A stretch of DNA of 64,000 nt. Source: Sinohyriopsis cumingii. Its lineage: Eukaryota; Mollusca; Bivalvia; Unionida; Unionidae. The stretch covers positions 11,187,220 through 11,251,219 of the forward strand of contig CM068839.1 of assembly GCA_028554795.2 (NCBI GenBank). Reading direction: 5' to 3'. Each line of letters begins with the position of its first letter. The stretch's first letter is position 1. Made by a program: the position numbers and the translations under genes. The notes under the pieces were generated by a model that was not told the origin of the DNA, did not search any database, and saw only the letters and a list, made by a program, of their open reading frames with translations. This document shows positions 2,903-49,383 of this stretch, one piece after another.

Positions 2903-5274
2903 GTTGGGTTACATAGCACATTTATTTTGTAGTTTTTATGAATAAACAGTAGATTTAAAAGGAGAAAATGTGGAATTTGAGGATTGTTCAATAAATGTAT
3001 TCTTTTTGCATGCAAACTTAAGACATTCACCATAAAAATAAACTTGCTTTGATGATGTAAAACAACAAATTCCTGATAGTATACAGTAATTCCAACTATT
3101 CTAAAATTTGCAGAAACAGTAAGATCTTATAACACATTTTTAAGCTTTATAAAAATAAAATTCAGGTCTTAGGGTACAAGAGCTTGGTTTATCATCAGTG
3201 GTCATTGTGGTATATTTGCAGGACATAAGTACATACTTATATATAGTATGTGAATAAATCTGCACAACTCATGCTACTTTTATCTTCATGTTCTGTATGA
3301 ATTTTGTTTGTCATTCTTCTGCTTTTTCTTCAAGTTAATTTTGAACAGAATCATTCAAATTTGGGAGGTATGGTATAAAGACAGCTTTAATATCTTAAGA
3401 TTGTTGCTGCACTTTTAATAGTTGCCATAGTAATCAACAATTTGATATAAATTTCAATAAATTAAATGTTAGAACAAAATATTTTTTTATATTTGAAATG
3501 TTTAAAATTATATGAGTACATTAAAGGAAAATACATTCACAGAGTATACAGCCAAAACTTGACTGACTTTAATTGTGCAGTCTTAACATTTCTCTCAAAG
3601 TAAAACACCTGTTGTGCCTATTTTATGAGTAACCAAGCCAAATAATTAGGAAATCTCACTTTTCTTAATCATAAATTAAACAAATTCAAACCTTGACTAA
3701 TTAGCTTAATGTAAATGAATACTAAACAATATGTAATTTTGTCTTGGTTTTTAAACATTCAAGGCTGGACTTGATTGTCATGGCAACCGACCATTTAATT
3801 TGCTGCATGCTGAAATAAAGCATATCCAATACCAATCCAGTGTCCCAAACATTAGTTTCCCACTGTGAAGAAAATTATTATTGCACAAGAAGTAAACTCA
3901 AGAGGGTCGCCAAATTATTGAATTAATAGATAAATCCTGTGCAGTCAGACAGTCAAGCCTCCAGACTGATGTGCAGTAAAGGGTTAATGGAGAAATTTTG
4001 AGACTGGGATTTGCATTTAAGGTTTTGTTCATTGCTTATATGAAGGAACTGTGCAATTTCAGTTCTGTATGTTTAGTATGTGCCAGGTGTTAATCAGTAC
4101 TTTTTTTTATTACCCAATTTTACTGACCTTATTTTATAGTTTTTGCAGGAAAAATTTATGTTACAGTTTCCTCTTAAGTTTTTTATTAGTATACAGCAGG
4201 TTAAAATTGTGTTACATGCATATGCAGGAACTGTGCATTTAAATGTCACTTCTTTCTGCTGATAAACACTTTCCTTACCTTTTTTAAAGTTATAAATAGA
4301 GTTTAAGAAACAATTTTTTATGCTGAAAAGTATCAGATTAAAAACTTTATTATAGTTGCTCAATCAGGTTTATGTGTTAAAATCCATTTTTTGTTAACCT
4401 GATGACAACTTTTTGGCATGCTTAGAAAGAAAGTGCCATTTTTGTTTGATCTGCAATAAATGTGGGAGGGGCCTATGGTGGTAACCTCACTTTCCTGTCC
4501 ATCCGTTCTGTCCATTTCTTCAATATACATGTATCTTGGTCTAGTTTTGAGTCACTCTTGGTCACTTTTACAGATACTATCAGTTGTAGTGTTTTGTAGT
4601 TTAGTGTGTTGATCCAGCTTGGGAAGAATTGAACTGGCATGCCAAAAGTAGGTGGTAGTATATTGGATTTGGCTGGTGTTATCTAGAGGATGACCTCCCT
4701 CAGTATTATAGCCCGGTGTGAGTGGATAGATAGAATTTCAACAGAGAACTGAGCAAGACTCTTGGGAAGAAATAGTGCAATACGAGCCCACTTAGACAAG
4801 GAAAATAACAAATTTAATCAAAACAAATTAATAGCAGCAATTCCAATTCAGCTTAAGTTATGTCAATGGAATTTAATAGCAATATCTAAATTGGATTTAT
4901 TTCATCATAATTACTATTGCATAATATTCACAAAATTCAAACAGTACAAAATCAGATATAAATATGCGATTATTGTTAACTCATGATAATAAAAATTATC
5001 CTAACAGACCAAGAAAATTGTTTCATATAACCCTATGAAATCCTACACATATGAAAACTTTGATAGCATGCAATCCTCAGTTTTATCAATAAACTAGTAA
5101 CTGTAAAATTAAACAGATCCATTGCATAACAACTCAAGCATACACAGATTTCCATGAAATTAAATAAACAATACATAATATGGATCCTAGTCATATCAAA
5201 CACATTTGCACAAAACAAAGAATCAAAATAGAAGATTACGTGGAAAAATTAAAAATGTGTACCTTAACGCTGTT
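2903..5274. other. Intronic sequence, no gene seen
   Basis: AT-rich sequence with homopolymer runs and no convincing exon, RNA gene or array on either strand. Short open frames here (for example 4051-4363) have low-complexity composition and no recognisable motif. Confidence 0.5.
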
Positions 5275-5625
5275 CTCTTTCAGAAATTGTGAATATGTTT
5301 TGATCTTGTCGTTATTACAGGTAGTCCATTCTGTAATAACAGTTCAACACTGGCTCAACTTCCAAGTTTTCAATAGTTTCTCTTATTTTTTTCTCCATAG
5401 GGTATTATATTATTTTCTCTATAAAGTAATCTGATGTTATCCCAAGAAATAGTATGCCCCAATTCTTTGCAGTGTTCACCAACTGCTGTAGGGATTCTCT
5501 GTTAGTATATAAATGTTCTTTGACTCGTGTTGCAAGGCTCCTAGTAGTTTCCCCAATGTAGTCTTTTTCATGATCATCACACTGGAGTTTACAGACAGCA
5601 GTTGGTGAACATTACCTTCTGCATC
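5275..5625 (-). mobile_element. Penelope-like element fragment, GIY-YIG endonuclease part
   Basis: On the minus strand the sequence encodes a C-x2-C-like lead followed by DYIGETTRSLATRVKEH, the pattern of the GIY-YIG endonuclease at the C terminus of Penelope-like retroelements. A downstream GHTIS-type motif is also present. The fragment is broken and old; no reverse transcriptase domain is seen next to it, because palindromic repeat and minisatellite sequence begins at about 5670. The family assignment comes from motif recognition only. Confidence 0.6.
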
Positions 5626-5659
5626 TATTATGATAATTTTCTTAAATTAAAACTCACTT

Positions 5660-5780
5660 TTACGTCTGGATTGGCTCAGATTAGGCATTGAATAATGTGC
5701 TGGTAGATCTGGGTTTGTGGACTTTTTATGAGTAATCAGTACAACAAACAACATAGATCCTGATCTTCTGTCAGCACATT
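5660..5780. repeat. Palindromic dispersed repeat (family B), copy 1
   Basis: Contains taatgtgctggtagatctg and a diverged inverted counterpart ending tcagcacatta, about 50 bases apart. Related sequence recurs at about 9567-9720, 10530-10690 and 56290-56385. It directly abuts the 24-bp array. Confidence 0.55.
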
Positions 5781-29025: not shown

Positions 29026-29268
29026 CATCATACCTTCCATATTGTTGTTGTGATGGTGATCTTAACTATCTTGTTTTTTCAACTCCTCTGGGAAGGATGG
29101 TCTTATCAAGATGGAGTCTTCACCAACAGACTTGGTAATTCTAGCTAGGTCTAAATAAAAATAGTGCTTTTCTAAAATCCAATATGGTCACCATTACAGT
29201 AATCCAATATGGCCACCATTACAGTAATCTTGAAAGAAATATTGTTATTTGTATACTTCTTAAACAGA
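29026..29268. other. Short spacer of dispersed-repeat fragments
   Basis: Holds two copies of aatatggccaccattacagt (29182 and 29209), phrases shared with family E. Confidence 0.5.
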
Positions 29269-30370
29269 AAATCATATTGATATGTGGTTTTATATGATAA
29301 AATCATATTGATATGGGGTTTGATATGATAAAATCATATTGATATGGGGTTTGATATTATAAATTCATATTGATATGGGGTTTGATATGATACAATCATA
29401 TTAATATGGGGTTTGATATTATAAATTCATATTGATATGGGGTTTGATATGATAAAATCATATTGATATGGGGTTTGATATGATAAAATCATATTGATAT
29501 GGGTTTGATATTATAAATTCATATTGATATGGGGTTTGATATGATACAATCATATTAATATGGGGTTTGATATTATAAATTCATATTGATATGGGGTTTG
29601 ATATGATAAAATCATATTGATATGGGGTTTGATATTATAAATTCATATTGATATGGGGTTTGATATGATAAAATCATACTGATATGGGGTTTGATATGAT
29701 AAAATCATATTGATATGTGGTTTGATATGATAAAATCTTATTGATGTGTGGTTTTATATGACACAATCATATTAATATGGGGTTTGATATTATAAATTCA
29801 TATTGATATGGGGTTTGATATGATAAAATCATATTGATATGGGGTTTGATATGATAAAATCATATTGATATGTGGTTTGATATGATAAAATCTTATTGAT
29901 ATGTGGTTTTATATGACACAATCATATTAATATGGGGTTTGATATTATAAATTCATATTGATATGGGGTTTGATATGATAAAATCATATTGATATGTGGT
30001 TTGATATGATAAAATCATATTGATATGTGGTTTGATATGATAAAATCTTATTGATATGGGGTTTTATATGATAAAATCTTATTGATATGGTGTTTGATAT
30101 GATAAAATCTTATTGATATGGGGTTTGATATGATAAAATCATATTGATATAGGGTTTGATATGATAAAATCATATTGATATGGGGTTTGATATGATAAAT
30201 CATATTGATATGGGGTTTGATATGATAAATCATATTGATATGGGGTTTGATATGATAAAATCATATTGATATGGGGTTTGGGGTTTGATATGATAAAATC
30301 ATATTGATATGGGGTTTGATATGATAAAATCATACTGATATGGGGTTTGATGTGGTAAAATCATATTGAT
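29269..30370. repeat. Minisatellite, 31-bp unit, about 36 copies
   Basis: Unit ttgatatgataaaatcatat plus tgatatggggt. Variants (ttataaattcat, tgtggttttatatgacac) recur together in blocks near 29740-29770 and 29890-29920, showing multi-unit duplications. The array resumes at 31211-31305. Confidence 0.96.
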
Positions 30371-31210: not shown

Positions 31211-31305
31211 TTTGATATGATAAAATCATATTGATATGGGGTTTGATATGATAAAATCATATTGATATGGTGTTTGATATGATAAAATCATATTGATATG
31301 GGGTT
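31211..31305. repeat. 31-bp minisatellite, resumed (3 copies)
   Basis: The same unit and orientation as 29269-30370, beyond the 840-bp insert. Confidence 0.95.
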
Positions 31306-31574
31306 TTCACCAAAACGCTTCTTATTCTGTCTTGTTGGTCTTAAAGGAAAAATACTGCCAGGGCAATTTTAACATCCATCTTGAAAATCTTTTTATTGCT
31401 ACTTCTACCGGATGGATGGTCAAATGAAATGGGGTTTTCACCAACAGATTTGTTATGATATCTAGTTGGTCCTAGATAGAAGTGATGCTAATCTGAAGTC
31501 CAATATGGACACCATGGCAGCCATCTTGAAAATCTTGTTATTAGGGTGTGTTGTTGGTCCTAAATGAAATGGTG
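31306..31574. other. Dispersed-repeat fragments
   Basis: Phrases such as ggggttttcaccaa, gccatcttgaaaatctt and tccaatatggacaccat recur nearby, suggesting degenerate repeat units of about 120-150 bp. No gene. Confidence 0.45.
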
Positions 31575-32981: not shown

Positions 32982-33630
32982 CATTATGCCCTGATTAACC
33001 TTTAGCATTATGCCCTGATTAACCTTTAACATTATGTCCTGATTAACCTTAACCTTATGCCCTGATTAACCTTTAACATTATGTCCTGATTAACCTTAAC
33101 CTTATGCCCTGATTAACCTTTAACCTTATGCCCTGATTAACCTTTAACATTATGCCCTGATTAACCTTTAACATTATGTCCTGATTAACCTTTAACATTA
33201 TGTTGCTGTTGTTGTTGTTGTGGGGTTTAACGCCATTTTTCAGCACAAGATAGGCTATGTATGGCGGCCAGTATTAATGGTGGAGGAAGAACCCGGGAAA
33301 ACCCCGGGAAGAACCACCGACCCACGAGAAGCTACTGGCAAGCTTTCTCACATACCCACATTGGCTGAATCCTAGACTTGAACCCACTCAGACAGAGGTG
33401 AGATTTAACATTATGTCCTGATTAACCTTTAACATTATGCCCTGATTAACCTTTAACATTATGTCCTGATTAACCTTTAACATTATGCCCTGATTAATCT
33501 TTAACATTATGTCCTGATTAACCTTAACCTTAAACAAGATTGCAAATCTTGTTGCTGTTTCTCCTGTTAAATCAAACATTGAACATTATGCCCTGATTAA
33601 CCTTTAACATTATGCCCTGATTACCTTTAC
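32982..33630. repeat. Minisatellite, 24-bp unit, interrupted by a SINE
   Basis: Unit taacctttaacattatgtcc plus tgat, with a gccc/gtcc alternation and some 22-bp units. About 9 copies lie left and about 8 right of the SINE at 33204-33403. A foreign stretch (acaagattgcaaatcttgtt) lies near 33533-33585. Confidence 0.93.
33191..33416 (-). mobile_element. 5'-truncated SINE (family B-type) inserted in a minisatellite
   Basis: The minus-strand element keeps the B-box part, the body and an (AAC)n tail (gttgttgttgttg on the plus strand) but lacks the A-box head. Flanking tttaacattatgt occurs at 33191-33203 and 33404-33416. In a tandem array that repeat could be chance, but both copies abut the SINE ends exactly. 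Confidence 0.88.
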
Positions 33631-36934: not shown

Positions 36935-38733
36935 GATTTGCAAGATATTACAGATATTTTCCAATTGTTTTACACATTTTAAAACTTATTCAGGTTACCC
37001 TCTATTTTTAGACCGAAAAATATTGTTGTTAAAATAATAAGCAAAAACTATTTGAGGTAGCCAAATGGGATTTTGTAAGCAAATTTATATTTTTTGATTA
37101 TGTTTTCATATCACATCAGTGGTTCCATTTTGTCACACATTTGTGAAGTTTTGGGACTTTAAAAAAAAGTGAAGGTGGAACATCAAAATTTGGCATGCTT
37201 GACATGATTTTGTGCCATTATAGCAATTTGTCCAGTTTTTCTGGTTTTAATTTTTTTTTACTTTGACTTGTTTAATCGCCATTGGGGCATACACGTGTTA
37301 CAAACACAAATCTAGTTATTTTATGATGCATTGACACCAAAGACCAATGTTCAAGGAGATTAAATTAAACATCTCGCTATTTCCTCACATCATGGTTTAT
37401 TTCTGGTTCCACCATTTAGAATTAATTCTGTACCCAATGTATTCACTGGAATTGTGGGAGTAGTAGTGTCTTTCCTTCGATTACTGGGAAGACTGATTCT
37501 TCAGGACTTGGGTGACTTGCTGATCCACGATGTTTAGAGGGTCTGCTCCTTTGTTGGTCCACAGTAGTTTCGTTAGGGCTCTTACACAACCATGAAAAGT
37601 CAGAGCTCATTTAATCTCAGGACTTTGTTTACATGGGAATGATTTTCCACACAAACTACATCTTTGTATCATTCAGTCTCCTGGATTGTCCAGTAGTCTT
37701 TTGATTTTTGACCCCATCTTTTGATCTACTGATTTGCCAAGAAAAACTTGGAGAAATAAAAAATCTGCCAAAGATAGGTGTTTTTTTGCTAAAGCAACAT
37801 CTTCCAAGCTTAGGTATTTCCAGCTTAAACAACATTCATTGGACTTTTACGGTTATTGTAATCCATCAGTTACGTGATTAACAACCTAACAACCATTCAG
37901 ATTGCGCTTGCAAAACACGCTGATTCATTTATTGCTGATTCATTTATTGTAAAAACGTAAGTTATTTTGCTCATCAGTGTTTCATTATTGAGTAATGTGT
38001 CATATATAACAGTAATGTGTCATATACAACAGCTTGCAGGCAATCTGACTAGTTCATGATTTACGTGGAAATGTAATATTTTTGATATCATATTGAAATG
38101 AATGCTAAAAGATTCGCAGGAAAATACTTACTTCTAACCCTTCTCTGGTGTCTGGCATAATTGTTGTCTATGAAAAATATGTACTTCGCATGGGTGTGCA
38201 AGGTGAAAGGGTTGACCATGTCTTAATGACAGTTCTCTGCCATGTGGGAGGAGGTATTCGCACCGAGCAGACAAGATTATTTGAGATGAAAATGCAGAAG
38301 CTATGAAATAGCGATAGGTAAGTATTGCATAACTAAAATTAGTTTTACCTTCTCCCCCCCTCTAAATAAAAAACTTTTAACCCTATGGTTTGTTATGGGT
38401 TTCCCCACAAGTGTTTTTTTTTAAAAACAAGACATAATTTTCGCTGTTTATCCTATTACCAATCGGGATGTTGCCACATTTGTGCTGCATCCACTCACTT
38501 AAAATTAATCAGTTTCATGAAAGTATTCTCTTTGTGTTATTGGTACAAAAGTCTGTTTTGATTTCCCATCCACTTCCTGATTGCCAGCATTGACTCAAAG
38601 TCTTTTATATCACCATCAATATGATTTGCCATATTCTCGTAAGTTCATCAAACTATCAACACTCAGTCTCCATCACAAAATTGTTTTGGTCGAATTACGG
38701 CACAAACTCCTTGCTCACACTCCATGCTCTACG
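36935..38733. other. Intron sequence; faint minus-strand coding trace near 37400-37720
   Basis: No gene is called. On the minus strand near 37500-37660 a stretch reads CSLCGKSFPCK followed within about 20 codons by FHGCVRALTKLL, loosely zinc-finger-like and broken by a stop. It may be a decayed gene or transposon piece. The remainder is unique, with a C-rich run near 38354. Confidence 0.3.
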
Positions 38734-38997
38734 CTGGAAGTACTCCATTCTTGACACTGGAACTATTCCAGGCTTGACGCTAGAAGTACTCCATTCTTGA
38801 CACTGGAAGTACTCCATGCTTGCCACTGGAAGTACTCCATTCTTGACACTGGAAGTACTCCATGCTTGCCACTGGAAGTACTTCATGCTTGCCACTGGAA
38901 GTACTCCATTCTTGCCACTGGAAGTACTCCATGCTTGCCACTGGAAGTACTCCATTCTTGCCACTGGAAGTACTCCATGCTTGCCACTGGAAGTACC
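38734..38997. repeat. Minisatellite, 23-bp unit, about 11 copies
   Basis: Unit ctggaagtactccatgcttg plus cca. 'Cattcttgaca', 'cattcttgcca' and 'catgcttgcca' forms alternate, indicating a 46-bp two-unit period in the right half. Confidence 0.95.
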
Positions 38998-39309
38998 TGT
39001 GAAATTTCCATCAGATAAATCACATTCAGGTTCTGACCTTTCACTGAAAATAGTTTTGACAGTCCATAAATTGCTGATGGTCCTCTGTAATTGTTACACA
39101 ATGTGCATGAGAAACCATAAACTCCTTTACATTTTCCGACACTGACTGCCATGTCACTGTTCTCTCTTTCTCAACCAAAGTCAGCATTCATTGTGTCTGT
39201 GTGATCATTACAAACCATGATATGTTGCTACATTTTCAGGAAAAGTGTTTGACTCAAACACAACGAATGCATTAGAAATCTTTTGGCCCAGGAATCTGTC
39301 ACATATGTT

Positions 39310-39720
39310 TCCATGAATAATCCTTAAAATAATAGAATAAAATAGAAACAAAAAGTCATACATATAATTATATTGTTATAAAGGATATACAATATATCAA
39401 TTAAAAAAAGATTATATAATTTTATATAGTGCATTAGCATTAAGGCCATTAGGATACAACGTATCTAATTTATGAATCCAGTAAGTTACTTTTATGAGTC
39501 TATTGGCAGGAAAGAAAAATCGAGTAGAGAGTGATTATTGGTGTTAAAGTGTGTTGAAATATTAGAGGAAAACTGAGGATCTCTATAACTTTTTATATGA
39601 AAGCGATAATTTTTCATTCTCTTAGAAACTTGTTGAAGTATTTGTCCAACATATTGCATGCTACATTTTATACAGGTTAGCAAATAAATCACATCAATTG
39701 ATATGCAGTTAGTTCAGGTT
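39310..39720 (-). mobile_element. Penelope-like element fragment, GIY-YIG endonuclease part (second type)
   Basis: On the minus strand the sequence reads IYLLTCIKCSMQYVGQ, then HFNTNNHSLLDFSF, and further on TYWIHKLDTLYPNGLN. These are, in order, the GIY-YIG core and C-terminal features of Penelope-like retroelements. It differs clearly from the fragment at 5275-5625, so two subfamilies are present. No reverse transcriptase is seen. A related non-coding piece (gttataaaggatatacaata) recurs at 42481-42500. The fragment is old and incomplete. Confidence 0.7.
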
Positions 39721-39752
39721 TCATTAGAGACTCATCTGTCTTATAGATCCTG

Positions 39753-39831
<79 letters not shown>

Positions 39832-39895
39832 ATGACGATGCATATCATCTATGACAATACATAATTGTTATTTTAAAATAAATGATGTTAACAAT
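39701..39895. repeat. Left arm of a long inverted repeat, with an (AT)n tract
   Basis: The segment from gttcaggtttcattagagac through (AT)n (39754-39828) to atgttatgacgatgcatatc and attttaaaataaa is matched in inverted orientation at 42305-42430. It joins the GIY-YIG fragment, so it may be the element's terminal repeat. Confidence 0.7.
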
Positions 39896-40089
39896 TTCTT
39901 TCAAAATGTGAACTAGTTGCACAGAATTTTTGGCATTTGTCTTGTTTTTTTTATCTCAATTCATGAATAATACTTGCACACTGTATTGCTTTAATTGGCA
40001 AGTCACTGTCATGTAATGAGCCCTTCAGTTCTGTCACTTTAAAGTCACTGCTGTCACTTGTGACTAAGCAAATCAGTGCAATGAGGCCC

Positions 40090-40352
40090 AAAATGTATAC
40101 CGGCCATATTCCCAGACAGTGTTAGGGGCCTTTTGAGACTCAAAATGTATACCGGCCATATTCCCAGACAGTGTTAGGGGCCTTTTGAGACTCAGAATGT
40201 ATACCGGCCATATTCCCAGACAGTGTTTGGGGCCTTTTGAGACTCAAAATGTATACCGGCCATATTCCCAGACAGTGTTAGGGGCCTTTTGAGACTCAAA
40301 ATGTATACCTGCCATATATTCCCAGATAGTGTTAGGGGCCTTTTGAGACTCA
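40090..40352. repeat. Minisatellite, 52-bp unit, 5 copies
   Basis: Unit aaaatgtataccggccatat ... ggggccttttgagactc. The last copy is diverged (cctgccatatattcccagat). Confidence 0.95.
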
Positions 40353-40752
40353 GAATGTGTTTTTTTGTGATTACAAGGGGAATCACTGTGCTTGACCAAA
40401 AAAGTGAGGTTATCCAATTGAGAATAAGCTATCTTTTCATATAAGCCTATAACAGATTTAAATCTTAACTAATTAAAATAACTTGTCGATTTTCTTCAAA
40501 GCTTTTAATACACTTATAAAGCAAAAACTAGTTGCTACACTTAGTATTGTCAAATATCAACACCATACACATATTTGCAAACACTCACATAATCACAATC
40601 ACTGTGACATTGAAAAAAGCAGACACAAAATTTCTTTAAACTCATTGGATTGCAAACTATAGGATTTATTAGATGCAGTCATTACTGCTTTCAAAAGTTC
40701 AGTAGTGGTTTGAAGTACTGCATGTGTCACTAGTGTTCATCTCTGCATTCAT
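40353..40752. other. Intron sequence, no feature seen
   Basis: Unique AT-rich sequence. Confidence 0.4.
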
Positions 40753-41374: not shown

Positions 41375-42240
41375 GACTGTTGTTCAAACTTCCCTTCCTT
41401 AATCACCTTGAAAAATGAATCACATTTGAACACTATCCTAAAACTTAAATAAGCAATTGTTGTGTTTTATGGATGGACTAAAATCTGCTTTCAATGCATA
41501 AACTTGCCAATAATCTGTAAGAGATGGCTCATTCAAGGCAATGATGTGTACTAACTTTTGCTTTTCATTGCACATCTAGCATCTCTTTGATTTATCTGTA
41601 ACTTCAAACAAATTGGGTCATTCCATTTGTGAACTTTCCCAATCAAATAGCACAATGGATTCTCCCAACAGCAGTTTAAATGGAATGCCACAATAGCTAT
41701 TCTTAGCCAAGTAAAAATAATATATGAAATGGCGGTTGCTAGTACATGACCTGTTTGTCATTTAATTGTGTCTGTGACAGTTTGCTATATAAACTGCCCC
41801 AAGGATAGTTTTTCCTTGAGATCAAAGCAGGGCTATAATCTTGGATACATTACACATATTATTGGCGTATACCGAAGCTGAGTTTGGGAGAGTTTTTTAG
41901 GTATATTTTTGATGAAGATTACTGAAAATCTTGTTTTTTGAAACATGGCATTGTCAGAGGGTTTTGGAGTAAAACATTGTGTTTTTAGCATAACACAATA
42001 TGGCAGGTATGGGTTGTACATGTACCTCCAAGATATTTAGCTTACATTGTTGTCAAAAATTCATGAACATCTTGCTTAATTGTATTTTCAGGCATATCTC
42101 TTGACTGCAAACTGCAGCTAACAGTTTATTTTTCCAAAGATATCAAAAGGATGTGCAGCAAAAACATGAATTTGTATGTCAGGTTCCAATGAATCTGTCG
42201 TAAGGTCTTTGTTGGCCTGGTCACTGAACATGCTGATTAT
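41375..42240. other. Intron sequence, no gene seen
   Basis: Unique AT-rich sequence; nothing recognised. Confidence 0.4.
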
Positions 42241-42248
42241 AGACACTA

Positions 42249-42570
42249 CTGATTATAGACACTACTGATTATCAAAAATTGAAATGTTTTTTAAAAAATG
42301 GTTGACGTCTTTTATTTTAAAATAAAAATTATGTCATTACGTATTGTCATAAATGATATGCATCATCATAACAATCATATATATATATATGGCAGGATCT
42401 AAAAGAGACATGAGTCTCTAACGAAACCTGAATCAGTAAAATAATACAATAAAATAGACAAACATACATAAAATTATGCTGTTATAAAGGATATACAATA
42501 TACCAAATCAAAAATAAAAAAACCAACTGCATATCAACTGATTATAGACACTACTGATTATCAAAAATTT
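42249..42570. mobile_element. About 258-bp insert flanked by a 32-bp direct repeat
   Basis: The 32-base repeat starting ctgattatagacactact lies at 42249-42280 and 42539-42570. Between them is the inverted partner of 39701-39895, plus the gttataaaggatatacaata phrase also found beside the Penelope-like fragment at 39380. This looks like a short non-coding Penelope-type copy with an unusually long target duplication. Confidence 0.55.
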
Positions 42571-42718
42571 TCAAAGCCTTTCCCCAAAAACAGCCAGTGT
42601 CCTCATTGAACCTCAAGGGAGCTCCATATGGGGTTTTCAGTGATTGTTTGCAAGACTTGCAGTTTGGAAGGATGAGTTAGGGATCTATTGTAGTAGATAT
42701 GAAGAGAGTCAAAGCTAT
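42571..42718 (-). pseudogene. hAT transposase remnant, downstream part
   Basis: On the minus strand, just beyond the 43-bp array, a frame reads LHIYYNRSLTHPSKLQVLQ, then ITENPIWSSLEVQ, a stop, and GHWLFLGKGFENF. This follows the hAT-transposase order 'IYxFFxxSxxR..KLQxLQ' and then 'RWLSxGKAFE' expected directly after the part encoded at 45891-46345. The stop and the loss of R in RWLS mark it as dead. The assignment is by motif only. Confidence 0.6.
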
Positions 42719-45700
42719 CTCTCCTTGTAGCTTATCTCTGACACTGTATCTACTCTCCTTGTAGCATATCTCTAACACTGTCTTTGCAGTATCTACTCTC
42801 CTTGTAGCATATCTCTGACACTGTCTTTGTAGTGTCTACTCTCCTTGTAGCATATCTCTGACACTGTCTTTGTAGTGTCTACTCTCCTTGTAGCATATCT
42901 CTGACACTGTGTTTGTAGTGTCTACTCTCCTTGTAGCATATCTCTGACACTGTCTTTGCAGTATCTACTCTCCTTGTAGCATATCTCTGACATTGACTTT
43001 GCAACATCTACTCTCCTTGTAGCATATCTCTGACACTGTCTTTGTAGTATCTACACTCCTTGTAGCATATATCTGACACTGTCTTTGTAGTGTCTACTCT
43101 CCTTGTAGCATATCTCTGACACTGTGTTTGTAGTGTCTACTCTCCTTGTTGCATATCTCTGACACTGTCTTTGCAGTATCTACTCTCCTTGTAGCATATC
43201 TCTGACACTGTCTTTGCAGTATCTACTCTCCTTGTAGCATATCTCTGACACTGTCTTTGCAGTATCTACTCTCCTTGTAGCATATCTCTGACACTGTCTT
43301 TGCAGTATCTACTCTCCTTGTAGCATATTTATGACACTGTCTTTGCAGTCTCTACTCTCCTTGTAGCATATCTCTGACACTGTGTTTGTAGTGTCTACTC
43401 TCTTTGTAGCATATCTCTGACACTGTCTTTGCAGTATCTACTCTCCTTGTAGCATATCTCTGACACTGTCTTTGCAGTATCTACTCTCCTTTTAGCATAT
43501 TTATGACACTGTCTTTGCAGTCTCTACTCTCCTTGTAGCATATCTCTGACACTGTCTTTGCAGTATCTACTCTCCTTGTAGCATATCTCTGACACTGTCT
43601 TTGCAGTCTCTACTCTCCTTGTAGCATATCTCTGACACTGTCTTTGCAGTATCTACTCTCCTTGTAGCATATCTCTGACACTGTTTTTGCAGTATCTACT
43701 CTCCTTGTAGCATATCTCTGACACTGTCTTTGCAGTATCTACTCTCCTTGTAGCATATTTATGACACTGTCTTTGCAGTCTCTACTCTCCTTGTAGCATA
43801 TCTCTGACACTGTGTTTGTAGTGTCTACTCTCTTTGTAGCATATCTCTGACACTGTCTTTGCAGTATCTACTCTCCTTGTAGCATATCTCTGACACTGTC
43901 TTTGCAGTATCTACTCTCCTTGTAGCATATCTCTGACACTGTCTTTGCAGTATCTACTCTCCTTTTAGCATATTTATGACACTGTCTTTGCAGTCTCTAC
44001 TCTCCTTGTAGCATATCTCTGACACTGTGTTTGTAGTGTCTACTCTCTTTGTAGCATATCTCTGACACTGTCTTTGCAGTATCTACTCTCCTTGTAGCAT
44101 ATCTCTGACACTGTCTTTGCAGTATCTACTCTCCTTTTAGCATATTTATGACACTGTCTTTGCAGTCTCTACTCTCCTTGTAGCATATCTCTGACACTGT
44201 CTTTGCAGTATCTACTCTCCTTGTAGCATATCGCTGACACTGTCTTTGCAGTCTCTACTCTCCTTGTAGCATATCTCTGACACTGTCTTTGCAGTATCTA
44301 CTCTCCTTGTAGCATATCTCTGACACTGTCTTTGCAGTATCTACTCTCCTTGTAGCATATCTCTGACACTGTCTTTGCAGTATCTACTCTCCTTGTAGCA
44401 TATTTATGACACTGTCTTTGCAGTCTCTACTCTCCTTGTAGCATATCTCTGACACTGTGTTTGTAGTGTCTACTCTCTTTGTAGCATATCTCTGACACTG
44501 TCTTTGCAGTATCTACTCTCCTTGTAGCATATCTCTGACACTGTCTTTGCAGTATCTACTCTCCTTGTAACATATCTCTGACACTGTCTTTGCAGTATCT
44601 ACTCTCCTTTTAGCATATTTATGACACTGTCTTTGCAGTCTCTACTCTCCTTGTAGCATATCTCTGACACTGTCTTTGCAGTATCTACTCTCCTTGTAGC
44701 ATATCTCTGACACTGTCTTTGCAGTCTCTACTCTCCTTGTAGCATATCTCTGACACTGTCTTTGCAGTATCTACTCTCCTTGTAGCATATTTATGACACT
44801 GTCTTTGCAGTCTCTACTCTCCTTGTAGCATATCTCTGACACTGTGTTTGTAGTGTCTACTCTCTTTGTAGCATATCTCTGACACTGTCTTTGCAGTATC
44901 TACTCTCCTTGTAGCATATCTCTGACACTGTCTTTGCAGTATCTACTCTCCTTGTAGCATATCTCTGACACTGTCTTTGCAGTATCTACTCTCCTTTTAG
45001 CATATTTATGACACTGTCTTTGCAGTCTCTACTCTCCTTGTAGCATATCTCTGACACTGTCTTTGCAGTATCTACTCTCCTTGTAGCATATCTCTGACAC
45101 TGTCTTTGCAGTATCTACTCTCCTTGTAGCATATCTCTGACACTGTCTTTGCAGTATCTAGTCTCCTTGTAGCATATTTATGACACTGTCTTTGCAGTGT
45201 CTACTCTCCTTGTAGCATATCTCTGACACTGTGTTTGTAGTGTCTACTCTCTTTGTAGCATATCTCTGACACTGTCTTTGCAGTATCTACTCTCCTTGTA
45301 GCATATCTCTGACACTGTCTTTGCAGTATCTACTCTCCTTGTAGCATATCTCTGACACTGTCTTTGCAGTATCTACTCTCCTTTTAGCATATTTATGACA
45401 CTGTCTTTACAGTCTCTACTCTCCTTGTAGCATATCTCTGACACTGTCTTTGCAGTGTCTACTCTCCTTGTAGCATATCTCTGACACTGTCTTTGCAGTG
45501 TCTACTCTCTTTGTAGCATATATCTGACACTGTCTTTGCAGTGTCTACTCTCCTTGTAGCATATCTCTGACACTGTGTTTGTAGTGTCTACTCTCTTTGT
45601 AGCATATCTCTGACACTGTCTTTGCAGTATCTACTCTCCTTGTAGCATATCTCTGACACTGTCTTTGCAGTATCTACTCTCCTTGTAGCATATCTCTGAC

Positions 45701-45890
45701 ACTGTCTTTGCAGTGTCTACTCTCCTTGTAGCATATCTCTGACACTGTCTTTGCAGTGTCTACTCTCCTTGTAGCATATCTCTGACACAGTCTTTGCAGT
45801 GTCTACTCTCCTTGTAACGTATCTCTGACACTGTTATTGCAGTCTCTACTCTCCTTGTAACATATCTCTGACACTGTCTTTGCAGTATCT
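42719..45890. repeat. Large minisatellite, 43-bp unit, about 74 copies, with higher-order structure
   Basis: Unit tctctgacactgtctttgca plus gtatctactctccttgtagcata. Two marked variants recur many times: one with gtgtttgtagtgtctactct and ctttgtagca, the other with cttttagcatatttatgac or its relative. They keep the same order relative to each other, so blocks of several units have been copied. The array lies between two parts of a hAT transposase remnant; its rightmost unit is continuous with that coding sequence on the minus strand. Confidence 0.97.
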
Positions 45891-46345
45891 AAACGTGCAA
45901 GTGAAGTATCTCCACATGCAAATGAGAGTCTATGGCCATAAAAAACATTTCAACTAAACTGGAGCAAGTTTCTTTAAGTAACTGTGGTACACCTTCCATG
46001 TTTCCAAGCATCATGGGTACAGATCACATAGCCATAGATTTTTGTTTGATCTAATCCTTTAGATTTTAGATGTGGATGCAGTTTTATTGCAAATGCATCA
46101 GCTGATGTTAATTGATCCATTGTACATTTTGAGTATGCAGTTCCCCTTCTGCTAAATGTATATAATCAAGTGCTTATCTGTTGCAAGGTCAGTTGATTCA
46201 TCAGCAATTGTTCCCAAAACAGGACTAGCTCTGACCTCATCAACCAAATATTCCTCCAGAAGTGCCTGCAAGATGCTAATGAATTCAGAACATGTGTTAT
46301 CTACCAGATACAACTTTGTGTTGATCTCAGTGACTTAAGTGTGGG
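45891..46345 (-). pseudogene. hAT transposase remnant, catalytic-core part
   Basis: Minus-strand reading from 46345 gives TKLYLVDNTCSEFISILQAL, then SPVLGTIADESTDLA and DKHLIIYI. The D-E-S-T-D motif followed by L-x-IY is typical of the hAT (DUF4371 / ZNF862-like) transposase core. After frame changes LKSKGLDQTKIYGYV, GVPQLLKETCSSLVEM and HRLSFACGDTSLARL follow in the family's usual order. The last block runs straight into the first 43-bp unit. At least two frame changes and a stop make it non-functional. No terminal inverted repeats or 8-bp target duplication were found. Confidence 0.75.
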
Positions 46346-47190
46346 AACTTGTTGAAAACTTTTAATTTTTTAGTAGACAAGTTATCCTTTTTAATGAAGT
46401 ATGCAGTTCTGAATAAGGTAAATACATTGGTTCAGCAGCTTTCTCTGAAACTTTATTTAACATTATCACATAGTAGGTATAGTTTTCCATTAGTATGGGC
46501 AATTTCATATTTTCTGTACTACCATATTTTTAAATATTATTTTGTGATTCAGATTGGTCCAAATAAGCCCATGAGATTATTGTGCAGTATTCTCTTTACT
46601 GATTGGCTGCGACTGTGGGATAACTTTTTAGGCTGGATTTCTGGAATTTTTTGTTTTTAATGAACATTTTTGGCTGCCATGTTTCAAATCAACTTGCGAA
46701 AGGAAATTGGGCAAAATGGTCTTGTCTGTTCAATAAGGCTAATTTATTTACCCCCCACAGGGATTTGTTATGTCATGTACTTCATATAATAACATGAAAA
46801 TTGGCTAACACCACAAGTCAAAAACAATATCCACAACAAGTAAAACTACGGGTATTGCTTGTGTTGGGGGTGGGGTGGGGGAGGCTGTGTATCTGTAGAA
46901 TGGAATCCACCCTATATACAAGCATGGTTTAAATGTTTAACAGAAGTAAATGAACTCACCTCTGTTAACAGAAGAATTTGGACATAAACCAGTCTCCAAA
47001 CTGACAGAAGTTTATCCAACCACTGCATATTTACGCAGTAAATATGTGATGCAATTCAAAGTCAGAATGCAATTTGTTTGCATATTCTGTAGTCTACTGT
47101 TCCGATTCAAACATTGCAAATATCCAGTCATAAATACATTGCAGTAAATATGGGAATTTCTGCATCCAGTAAACCTTCTTTCACATGAAT
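46346..47190. other. Intron sequence, no gene supported
   Basis: A plus-strand frame at 46349-46660 (103 codons) is hydrophobic with no recognised motif. The sequence next to the hAT remnant may be more transposon, but I could not identify it. Confidence 0.4.
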
Positions 47191-47380
47191 ATTGCAGTAT
47201 CAATGTAATGTTTAATTGTGAAAGTGACACTTGCAGTATCAATGTAATGTTTAGTTGTGAAAGTGACACTTGCAGTATCAATGTAATGTTTAGTTGTGAA
47301 AGTGACACTTGCAGTATCAATGTAATGTTTAGTTGTGAAAGTGACACTTGCAGTATCAATGTAATGTTTAGTTGTGAAAG
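47191..47380. repeat. Minisatellite, 39-bp unit, 5 copies
   Basis: Unit cttgcagtatcaatgtaatg plus tttagttgtgaaagtgaca; 39 being a multiple of three leaves both strands open. Confidence 0.95.
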
Positions 47381-47707
47381 TTACAATCAAGGTTACATAA
47401 ACATGGATCATCAACTGTATGGGTAGTACATCAAACAATGCAACATCACACACACTGGACATTCTGTGCTGAAAAATAACTTTGTGTAAAATGTTCTCTT
47501 TATTCAGAAGGATGCTTGTTCTTTGATTTGTAGTTTGTAAGAAAAGTATAATTTACTTTTACATGTCATTGCTAGTTCACCTCTGGTTAGGACTATTTTT
47601 TACGCACAACAGATGAAAGGTGCAGCATCTGTCAGAATTAATGAAATTATTTGTTCTTTTTTCCATCTAAATAACTTTCACATAAATAAACTCTATGTGA
47701 TAAAAAG

Positions 47708-47862
47708 AATCTCAAATAGATAATGATTCTGTATTAAATTAATAATGAAACTCGTTGAATAATGTCCAGCTTTTGCTTCCCAAGGCTTGCTAAAGCTGAA
47801 CATTATTCAACGAGTTTCATAAATTCAATATTAAATCATTACTCATTTGAGATCATCTTTAT
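47708..47862. repeat. Foldback element, about 150-bp near-perfect hairpin
   Basis: Arms at 47745-47773 and 47792-47820 pair over 29 bases with one mismatch around an 18-base loop. Weaker pairing extends outward to about tctcaaatag (47711) and catttgagat (47845). No coding sequence; it looks like a MITE or foldback element. Confidence 0.8.
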
Positions 47863-48311
47863 TTGACCAGCTTGTTATCTTTAGCTGCATTTTTGGCTTT
47901 GACTGATCTTGCATGGTTATTGCATGCAGCGTTGCTCTACTTATGCCGATTTCATAAAGTTTGCAGATCCATGAAGTTTTTATTATCATGCTTTTGGCAG
48001 ATTTAAAACAAAAAAACAGCACAGAGTCTGCTGTCATACCTGAACCAAGTGAATAATTCTGTCCACTTTCTTTTAAAGCTCTAGCTAGTCAGCTGGCAGT
48101 TTTCAGCAGTATTATGTTTCGGCTTTGACATGTTGAGTATTGATGACTCAAACAGAAAAAACCTGGGACTGATGCTTGTTATTGTCCTAACTAGGTGTGT
48201 ATAAATAAACCTTCCAACATACGAAAAAAAACAACTTCAGTATAACATACAGATATTTTACTGGGAAGCTGATCATTGAAATATAATTCTCTCATGGATT
48301 AAGTTGCTCTT
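47863..48311. other. Intron sequence, no feature seen
   Basis: Unique AT-rich sequence. Confidence 0.4.
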
Positions 48312-48984
48312 CTCTAACCCCATATGACCAGTTTAACTGTGAGCAATATAGCCCTCTAACCCATATGACCAGTTTAACTGTGAGCAATATAGTCCTCTAA
48401 CCCCATATGACCAGTTTAACTGTGAGCAATATAGTCCTCTAACCCCGTATGACCAGTTTAACTGTGAGCAATATAGACCTCTAACCCCATATGACCAGTT
48501 TAACTGTGAGCAATATAGTCCTCTAACCCCGTATGACCAGTTTAACTGTGAGCAATATAGTCCTCTAACCCATATGACCAGTTTAACTGTGAGCAATATA
48601 GTTCTCTAACCCCATATGACCAGTTTAACTGTGAGCAATATAGTCCTCTAACCCCATATGACCAGTTTAACTGTGAGCAATATAGTCCTCTAACCCCGTA
48701 TGACCAGTTTAACTGTGAGCAATATAGTCCTCTAACCCCATATGACCAGTTTAACTGTAAGCAATATAGTCTTCTAACCCCATATGACCAGTTTAACTGT
48801 AAGCAATATAGTCTTCTAACCCCATATGACCAGTTTAACTGTGAGCAATATAGTCCTCTAACCCAATATGACCAGTTTAACTGTGAGCAATATAGTCCTC
48901 TAACCCCGTATGACCAGTTTAACTGTGAGCAATATAGTCCTCTAACCCAATATGACCAGTTTAACTGTGAGCAATATAGTCCTC
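48312..48984. repeat. Minisatellite, 42-bp unit, 16 copies
   Basis: Unit ccccatatgaccagtttaac plus tgtgagcaatatagtcctctaa. Variants (cccgtatg, cccaatatg, gtaagc, one-base-short ccatatg) are interspersed. The period is a multiple of three. Confidence 0.96.
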
Positions 48985-49323
48985 AGACTACTGAGCTATA
49001 TCAAGCCGAATCAGAGAGGCCACTTTTGATTGTTCAACAAAGAAAAACTGTAAGTAAGATCTACTGACCTTAAATGAAGCTTACTTGATGACAACCTTAC
49101 TCATTGTTCAGCAGAGACACCATCTTTGCAGATCGTAACCTTTGAAGTTGACTTCATTAAGGTGTTTGTTTCATACTTCATTGGATAAACAGATCAAAGG
49201 CAGTTTGATATAATTATAGTTGGGATTTCCAATTACTGATTTCTGGTTGCTTCAAGTATGTGCAAAAAGTCAAAACCTTTGAATTGGTGGTCATGTCCAG
49301 CAAATATAGGAATTGAATGAAGT

Positions 49324-49383
<60 letters not shown>

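Follow-up and report, generated by a model that had tools for sequence, protein, structure and literature searches.

At least 7,276 tandem repeats of the human genome derive from transposons, and they make up 23% of minisatellites/satellites (Ahmed and Liang 2012, PMC3389668). According to the passages of that study that deal with their origin, established mechanisms explain only 6% of these repeats, and hotspots occur in some elements and in others not at all. Many minisatellites and satellites of transposon origin are listed in the relevant parts of reviews (PMC9659126, PMC6947457). In the model of Haber and Louis, as outlined in excerpts of two of these sources (PMC6947457, PMC3389668), slippage or unequal exchange between short repeats on either side of a small segment creates its first duplicate, and growth follows. 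The start of a minisatellite is rarely visible because the pre-amplification sequence is gone. In the case described here, from the bivalve Sinohyriopsis cumingii, dispersed copies of a transposon preserve it.

The window, namely the whole stretch of 64,000 nucleotides that was analysed (contig C16, 11187220-11251219), contains a tandem array with a period of 43 bp and 94% matches (Table 1). The first-pass annotation had described it as a 3.2-kb minisatellite grown inside a hAT transposase gene at 42571-46345. The array is real and lies, as claimed, between two minus-strand blocks of a broken transposase; it is 3.15 kb long, however, and 42571-46345 is the array plus its flanks. With 73.2 copies of a 43-bp unit, it is a tandem array within the unit range of about 10-100 bp expected of a transposon-derived minisatellite. 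Cutting by script yields 74 pieces, one of them only 34 bp long, and the mean divergence of 72 units from the consensus is 3.6%, with 2, 5 and 2 differing bases in the three units at the right edge. On the minus strand the unit codes for DTAKTVSEICYKE of the transposase. Because 43 is not a multiple of three and one frame of the unit contains a stop, every reading frame meets stops inside the array. A 34-bp core of the unit, with up to three mismatches allowed, has 71 matches in the 2.9-Gb genome, all within the array, and the reversed core used as a control has none in the same genome-wide search.

Table 1 Features of the window copy of the transposon (positions in the window)
Feature	Position	Strand	Evidence
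SPVLGTIADESTDLA peptide	46182-46226	-	exact match
HRLSFACGDTSLARL peptide	45890-45934	-	exact match
IYYNRSLTHPSKLQVLQ peptide	42648-42698	-	exact match
HWLFLGKGFENF peptide	42564-42599	-	exact match
Upstream element part with 42-bp array	47861..49330	-	67% over 549 bp and 61% over 482 bp to L087
Second minisatellite of element origin, 42 bp x 16	48312..48984	-	TRF; single-copy counterparts
39-bp x 5 array	47192..47385		TRF; within the ~1.4 kb absent from relatives at this place
Transposase block before the array, DESTD and HRLSFA motifs	45905..46469	-	matches to L010 and L011; colinear with L087 4635-5199
21-bp tandem near-duplicate SFACGDT / SLARLDT, right array edge	45884..45925	-	TRF; gap in 9 aligned relatives
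43-bp minisatellite, 73 copies	42746..45891	-	TRF, unit split, single-copy counterparts, unit-core search
Transposase block after the array (IYYNRSLTHPSKLQ)	42537..42747	-	matches to L038 and L036
Further element sequence	42020..42280	-	colinear matches to L039, L038, L035 and L078
52-bp x 5 array	40082..40358		TRF; edge of the ~1.9 kb that relatives lack
Downstream element part, blocks 39962-40096, 39183-39326, 39006-39143 and 38400-38706	38400..40096	-	
Probable third minisatellite of element origin, 23 bp x 12, between two element blocks	38719..38996	-	TRF

All four peptides that had been quoted as transposase motifs occur exactly, on the minus strand and on the sides stated. They span two reading frames, the HRL peptide lying in one and the remaining three in another, and stops are present both between and inside the blocks that flank the array, indicating that the transposase gene is broken. 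The right-hand motif is present exactly, although its SLARLDT part proves to be a 21-bp near-duplicate of SFACGDT (TRF 45884-45925). This duplicate is private to the window copy, being absent from nine relatives aligned with MAFFT, and the 43-bp unit begins within its second copy. The right flank is 69% identical to the locus L010 over 579 bp (E 4e-79) and 68% identical to L011 over 604 bp (E 2e-73), a likeness that is far from chance. The block after the array is 73% identical to L038 over 211 bp and 68% identical to L036 over 209 bp. Both flanks belong to the same element, since eight of ten clear relatives (L010, L011, L025, L035, L036, L041, L070 and L078) match both of them in order; in L038 and L040 the match is confined to the left flank.

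The element is very probably hAT-like. The hAT name comes from a profile comparison with DUF4371 loci and not from a Pfam match: Pfam searches gave no hAT or DUF4371 match either for the window flanks (threshold E 10 for the joined reading and E 1 for the pieces) or for the peptides of relatives (E up to 1 and 0.1). The hAT identity proposed by the first-pass annotation is thus backed by the profile comparison and not by the Pfam search of the flanks. DUF4371 matches are present in the same genome (96 among 150 scored candidates), and five of the eight such loci that were fetched were compared by hhalign with a family alignment around the DESTD motif, which gave a probability of 96.1% at E 2.9e-9. 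This alignment holds 12 peptides, namely that of the window and those of 11 of the 14 other right-flank loci; nine of L012-L023 are included, and L014, L015 and L023 are left out. The block that bears the array site is colinear with the DUF4371 loci and ungapped from HxLxL to LxxFF, the likeness being weak (39%, E 3e-4). We take the element to be of the ZNF862 type and its motifs to follow the hAT order. In a BLAST self-comparison of two 10-kb loci, no pair of inverted sequences was detected to either side of the element; short ends can be missed in such a search, and the copies are old. The right-flank peptide of 60 aa has no relative in viral contigs, a search of PDB by sequence returned none at E up to 1, and Rfam gave none at gathering scores.

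Other copies of the element were searched for in the window's own genome of 2.9 Gb. The right-flank peptide finds 15 places, the window among them, and the left-flank peptide finds the window and L025 (E 0.048); further copies were found with peptide queries from L025, L036, L038-like copies and L078. Three more loci, L084-L086, came up as weak matches (E 0.47-0.74). Besides the window, 12 loci bear the site of the array (L010, L025, L035, L036, L038, L040, L041, L042, L070, L078, L079 and L011, the last being identical with L039), and the counterpart search covered these 12; L012-L023 match the right-flank peptide only. Ten of the 12 are alike in DNA to one another and to the window and are dispersed over contigs C1, C2, C10, C15, C16 and C17, as is expected of a multi-copy dispersed element. 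The remaining two, L042 and L079, came from weak peptide hits (E 0.95 and 0.71); in DNA they match only each other at the thresholds used, and their peptides line up roughly with the site.

The first-pass annotation had proposed that the founding unit was transposase coding sequence, to be checked by whether an intact copy holds it once between the two blocks. In nine of the 12 loci, one counterpart of the unit lies at the expected place, in favour of the proposal. The 43-bp unit was scored without gaps over each whole locus and compared with 200 shuffled units; in each of the nine loci the best-scoring place is the expected one and none of the 200 shuffles reaches its score, and an earlier shuffle test of L025, L010 and L011 gave 0 of 5000. 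The counterparts are identical to the unit at 37 of 43 positions in L078, 34 in L038 and L070, 33 in L025 and L041, 30 in L010 and L036, 29 in L011 and 27 in L040, the last of which carries a small deletion. Consistently, in the MAFFT alignment of the nine single-copy relatives the unit is a single block continuous with both flanks, and the site of L078 is one open frame reading HRLPFACVDAAKTVSDIGYTESILNF, compared with DTAKTVSEICYKE in the window unit. When gaps were allowed, the unit in L011 did not rise above z 4 in one scan or z 3.5 in another. L042 and L079 do not pass the shuffle test, their scores being reached by 114 and 68 of the 200 shuffled units; these loci are so distant that DNA is uninformative. 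The twelfth locus, L035, has an array of its own at the site (940-1542, period 40 with units of 38-40 bp, 15.1 copies).

The 43-bp array is part of a copy that has been enlarged elsewhere as well. From 49330 down to 38400 the window is colinear with about 2 kb (3749-5720) of L087, the 10-kb locus around L010, so that the window copy has lengthened from some 2 kb to 11 kb. The extra length consists of the 43-bp, 42-bp and 23-bp arrays and of DNA absent from relatives, in stretches of some 1.4, 1.9, 0.6 and 0.26 kb. One of these, of about 257 bp, separates the further element sequence from the block after the array; by eye, 42251-42281 and 42538-42569 form a direct repeat, roughly 30 bp long, that brackets some 257 bp missing from other copies. 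The stretch of about 1.4 kb (46470-47860) lies within the element, holds the 39-bp array and contains a palindrome near 47755-47822, seen by eye. The downstream blocks are colinear with L087 5340-5692, with 5626-5978 of L088, the 10-kb locus around L036, and with L025 1712-2378.

Single-copy counterparts of the 42-bp unit are present in five of nine loci (L087 at 4160-4197, L039, L088, L038 and L070; z 7.5-11.1), by which measure the 42-bp array is derived from single-copy element sequence. The 23-bp array is probably element-born too: its unit has a counterpart in one of nine loci, L025 (2077-2098), at the colinear place, with a score (z 5.0) weaker than those of the others. Neither the 39-bp nor the 52-bp unit has a counterpart at z>3.5 in the nine loci tested, and for four control arrays located outside the element a single match was seen (z 3.6). 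A unit of 16 bp x 2.5 in the window also has counterparts, in L039, L035, L036 and L038 (z 4.5-6.0).

Relatives carry arrays of the same kind. The 39-bp array of L035 has counterparts in L010, L011, L036, L038 and L041 (z 4.4-7.8), and its 44-bp array (402-780) has one in L041 (z 6.8); L035 thus holds two arrays in one copy, each from its own element sequence, the one at 940-1542 lying at the place of the window array. In L025, an array of 18 bp x 24.8 on the HRLSLA codons, with counterparts in L011 and the window, ends right before the single 43-bp counterpart of that locus. In L078, an array of 42 bp x 20 (490-1334 in minus-strand coordinates of the locus) is built on codons upstream of the HRL motif, and its units match one place each in L011, L035, L041, L010 and the window; the stretch that corresponds to the window array is still present once in this locus. 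Element-born arrays therefore total seven, one of them weakly supported: three in the window and four in L035, L025 and L078. They are present in four of 13 copies, or four of 11 when L042 and L079 are set aside. The rarity that the first-pass annotation had attached to the case does not hold up, because other arrays in the window copy and in relatives arose in the same way. Counterparts were also seen for a 64-bp unit of L035 (in L036, z 7.5) and a 42-bp unit of L036 (in L041, z 4.1), and no counterpart above z 4 was found for the 26-bp unit of L035, the 48-bp unit of L038, the 48- and 28-bp units of L041 or the 51-bp unit of L042. L038, L040 and L070 are close relatives (84-93% alike); the first two seem to carry internal deletions and have a 48-bp array in common, one unit of which is present in L070.

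That one short stretch of the transposon is a repeated birthplace of minisatellites is a tentative and rather doubtful idea. The DAxxTVSEIGYxE codons underlie separate arrays in the window copy (43 bp) and L035 (38-40 bp). Some 180 bp upstream, overlapping pieces served as founders in L035 (44 bp) and L078 (42 bp), and the array of L025 (18 bp) is built on the HRLSLA codons that lie between. Five of seven founders fall within 250 bp, which random placement matches in 4.9% of 20,000 trials, or in 9.8% when the window array is held fixed; the presence of two overlapping founder pairs is matched in 9.0% and 13.5% of trials, in the same order. These statistics are rough, founder positions and coverage having been entered by hand, and the founder cluster is suggestive at best. 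Outside the window copy, four element-born arrays are observed against 1.5 expected at the density of random stretches (P 0.07) and 4.0 expected at the density of the window (P 0.57), so that the excess is not significant. With arrays counted at a period of 10-70, at least three copies and a score of 100, the window has 27 arrays (0.42 per kb, covering 27.6%), and twenty arbitrary 2-kb stretches of the genome have six (0.15 per kb, 4.9% of bases); the minisatellite share of the window is about five times that of arbitrary stretches. Elsewhere in the window, a 31-bp unit recurs as separate arrays less than 1 kb apart (29268-30370 and 31211-31306), as does a 24-bp unit (32982-33202, 33404-33532 and 33575-33629). 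If the birthplace reading is true, transposon copies can serve as replicates for asking which sequences give birth to minisatellites.

Because single counterparts are present in nine loci and the unit core with up to three mismatches is found nowhere else, the array is concluded to have grown in place, at one copy, from transposase sequence. With a probability of about 0.92, an old hAT-like DNA transposon copy decayed, and 43 of its coding bases were later duplicated and grew to about 73 copies. In outline, a DNA transposon copy (hAT-like, DUF4371/ZNF862 type) would have inserted here and then lost its function; 43 bases of transposase coding sequence (the DTAKTVSEICYKE codons, just after the HRLxxA motif) would have been duplicated in tandem through a local copying error; and the pair would have grown to the present array by unequal exchange, slippage or multi-unit duplication. 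We infer that slippage or unequal exchange drove the growth. Growth presumably followed the decay of the transposase: given the broken frames and a unit length that shifts the reading frame, a working gene is an unlikely setting for it.

The first-pass annotation had called this a dated ancestor. The order of events is supported; an absolute date is not possible. In a tree of nine copies, made without L042, L070, L078 and L079, the branch of the window copy measures about 0.21 substitutions per site, and the copies differ by 20-46%, except for L038 and L040 (4%). Because the units diverge by only 3.6% compared with this branch, array growth looks late, unless conversion keeps the units uniform; gene conversion at the edge units may make the array look younger than its true age. 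The mean likeness of the array consensus to relatives (0.756, 8 pairs) exceeds that of relatives among themselves over the same block (0.669, 26 pairs), and the flanks show no such difference (0.762 vs 0.752 before the array, 0.726 vs 0.728 after it). This comparison leaves the L010-L011 and L038-L070 pairs out of the mean of other pairs, L040 out of the table and the 21-bp duplicate out of the window flank. In that table L078, whose site bears no array, has a mean of about 0.74 against the seven other relatives. The closer consensus could be due to chance, or to early growth in which older letters were frozen.

Alternatively, a satellite or mobile tandem array that already existed might have been inserted by chance between the transposase blocks. 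Insertions do occur in the window copy, which elsewhere holds the stretches without counterpart in relatives described above, but the 43-bp unit is the very transposase stretch that would otherwise be missing, held once at that place in nine of 12 loci, and its core with up to three mismatches is found nowhere else in the genome, which makes a chance insertion extremely improbable. Selection on the array, for example as part of a domesticated host gene or of a regulatory element, is just as improbable: the flanking frames are broken, a 43-bp unit does not preserve the frame, and the whole window is strewn with arrays unrelated to one another in sequence. No function of the array is indicated, and the preferred interpretation is a neutral by-product of a minisatellite-prone genome.

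Somewhat less remote, though still unlikely, is that the array was already present in an ancestral transposon copy and was spread by transposition, and that single-copy relatives have contracted. Such inheritance is suggested for human LTR12 in the relevant passage of PMC3389668, and the array of L035 lies at the same place and is founded on nearly the same codons. The nine-copy tree is star-like, with support of 26-65 on four of six inner branches, so that it does not settle whether the window copy and L035 are sisters. The unit joins of the two arrays differ, however (...GGAGAG with 43 bp in the window, ...AATATG with 38-40 bp in L035), and the window unit matches the best L035 unit at 29 of 43 positions, no nearer than it matches single-copy relatives (27-37 of 43). 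An ancestral array would also require several contractions to exactly one copy. Growth in place in the window copy is therefore preferred.

Transposon-derived minisatellites are well known, and the window array is a clean further example of a mechanism class that is already known; a literature search, mainly of titles and abstract openings, returned no title on a minisatellite in a hAT transposase. When the founders are set against the model of Haber and Louis, the window founder has at most a very short end repeat, whereas the 42-bp founder of L078 has CAACAA-like repeats at both ends (both by eye). A transposon family in a repeat-rich genome offers replicated births, and these can be compared for the length of the founder, its edges and the short repeats that flank it. 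As in the CACTA-like Jozin/Chenopodium satellite, for which the parts of the paper that concern its origin trace a tandem repeat to the transposase region of a DNA transposon (Tnp2 TPase; PMC9659126), the source here is a transposase. The Jozin repeat, however, is a satellite family, whereas the window array is a minisatellite at a single locus with single-copy counterparts in the same genome. The transposon-derived minisatellites of the human genome (PMC3389668) are alike in that the unit is a piece of a transposon and the array has grown inside one copy. The human cases in the passages concerned are Alu and LTR elements, whereas the window case is coding sequence of a DNA transposon; unlike them, it also stands in a genome rich in tandem repeats, with several arrays in one copy. 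The value of the window case lies in a visible single-copy state and in replication among transposon copies.
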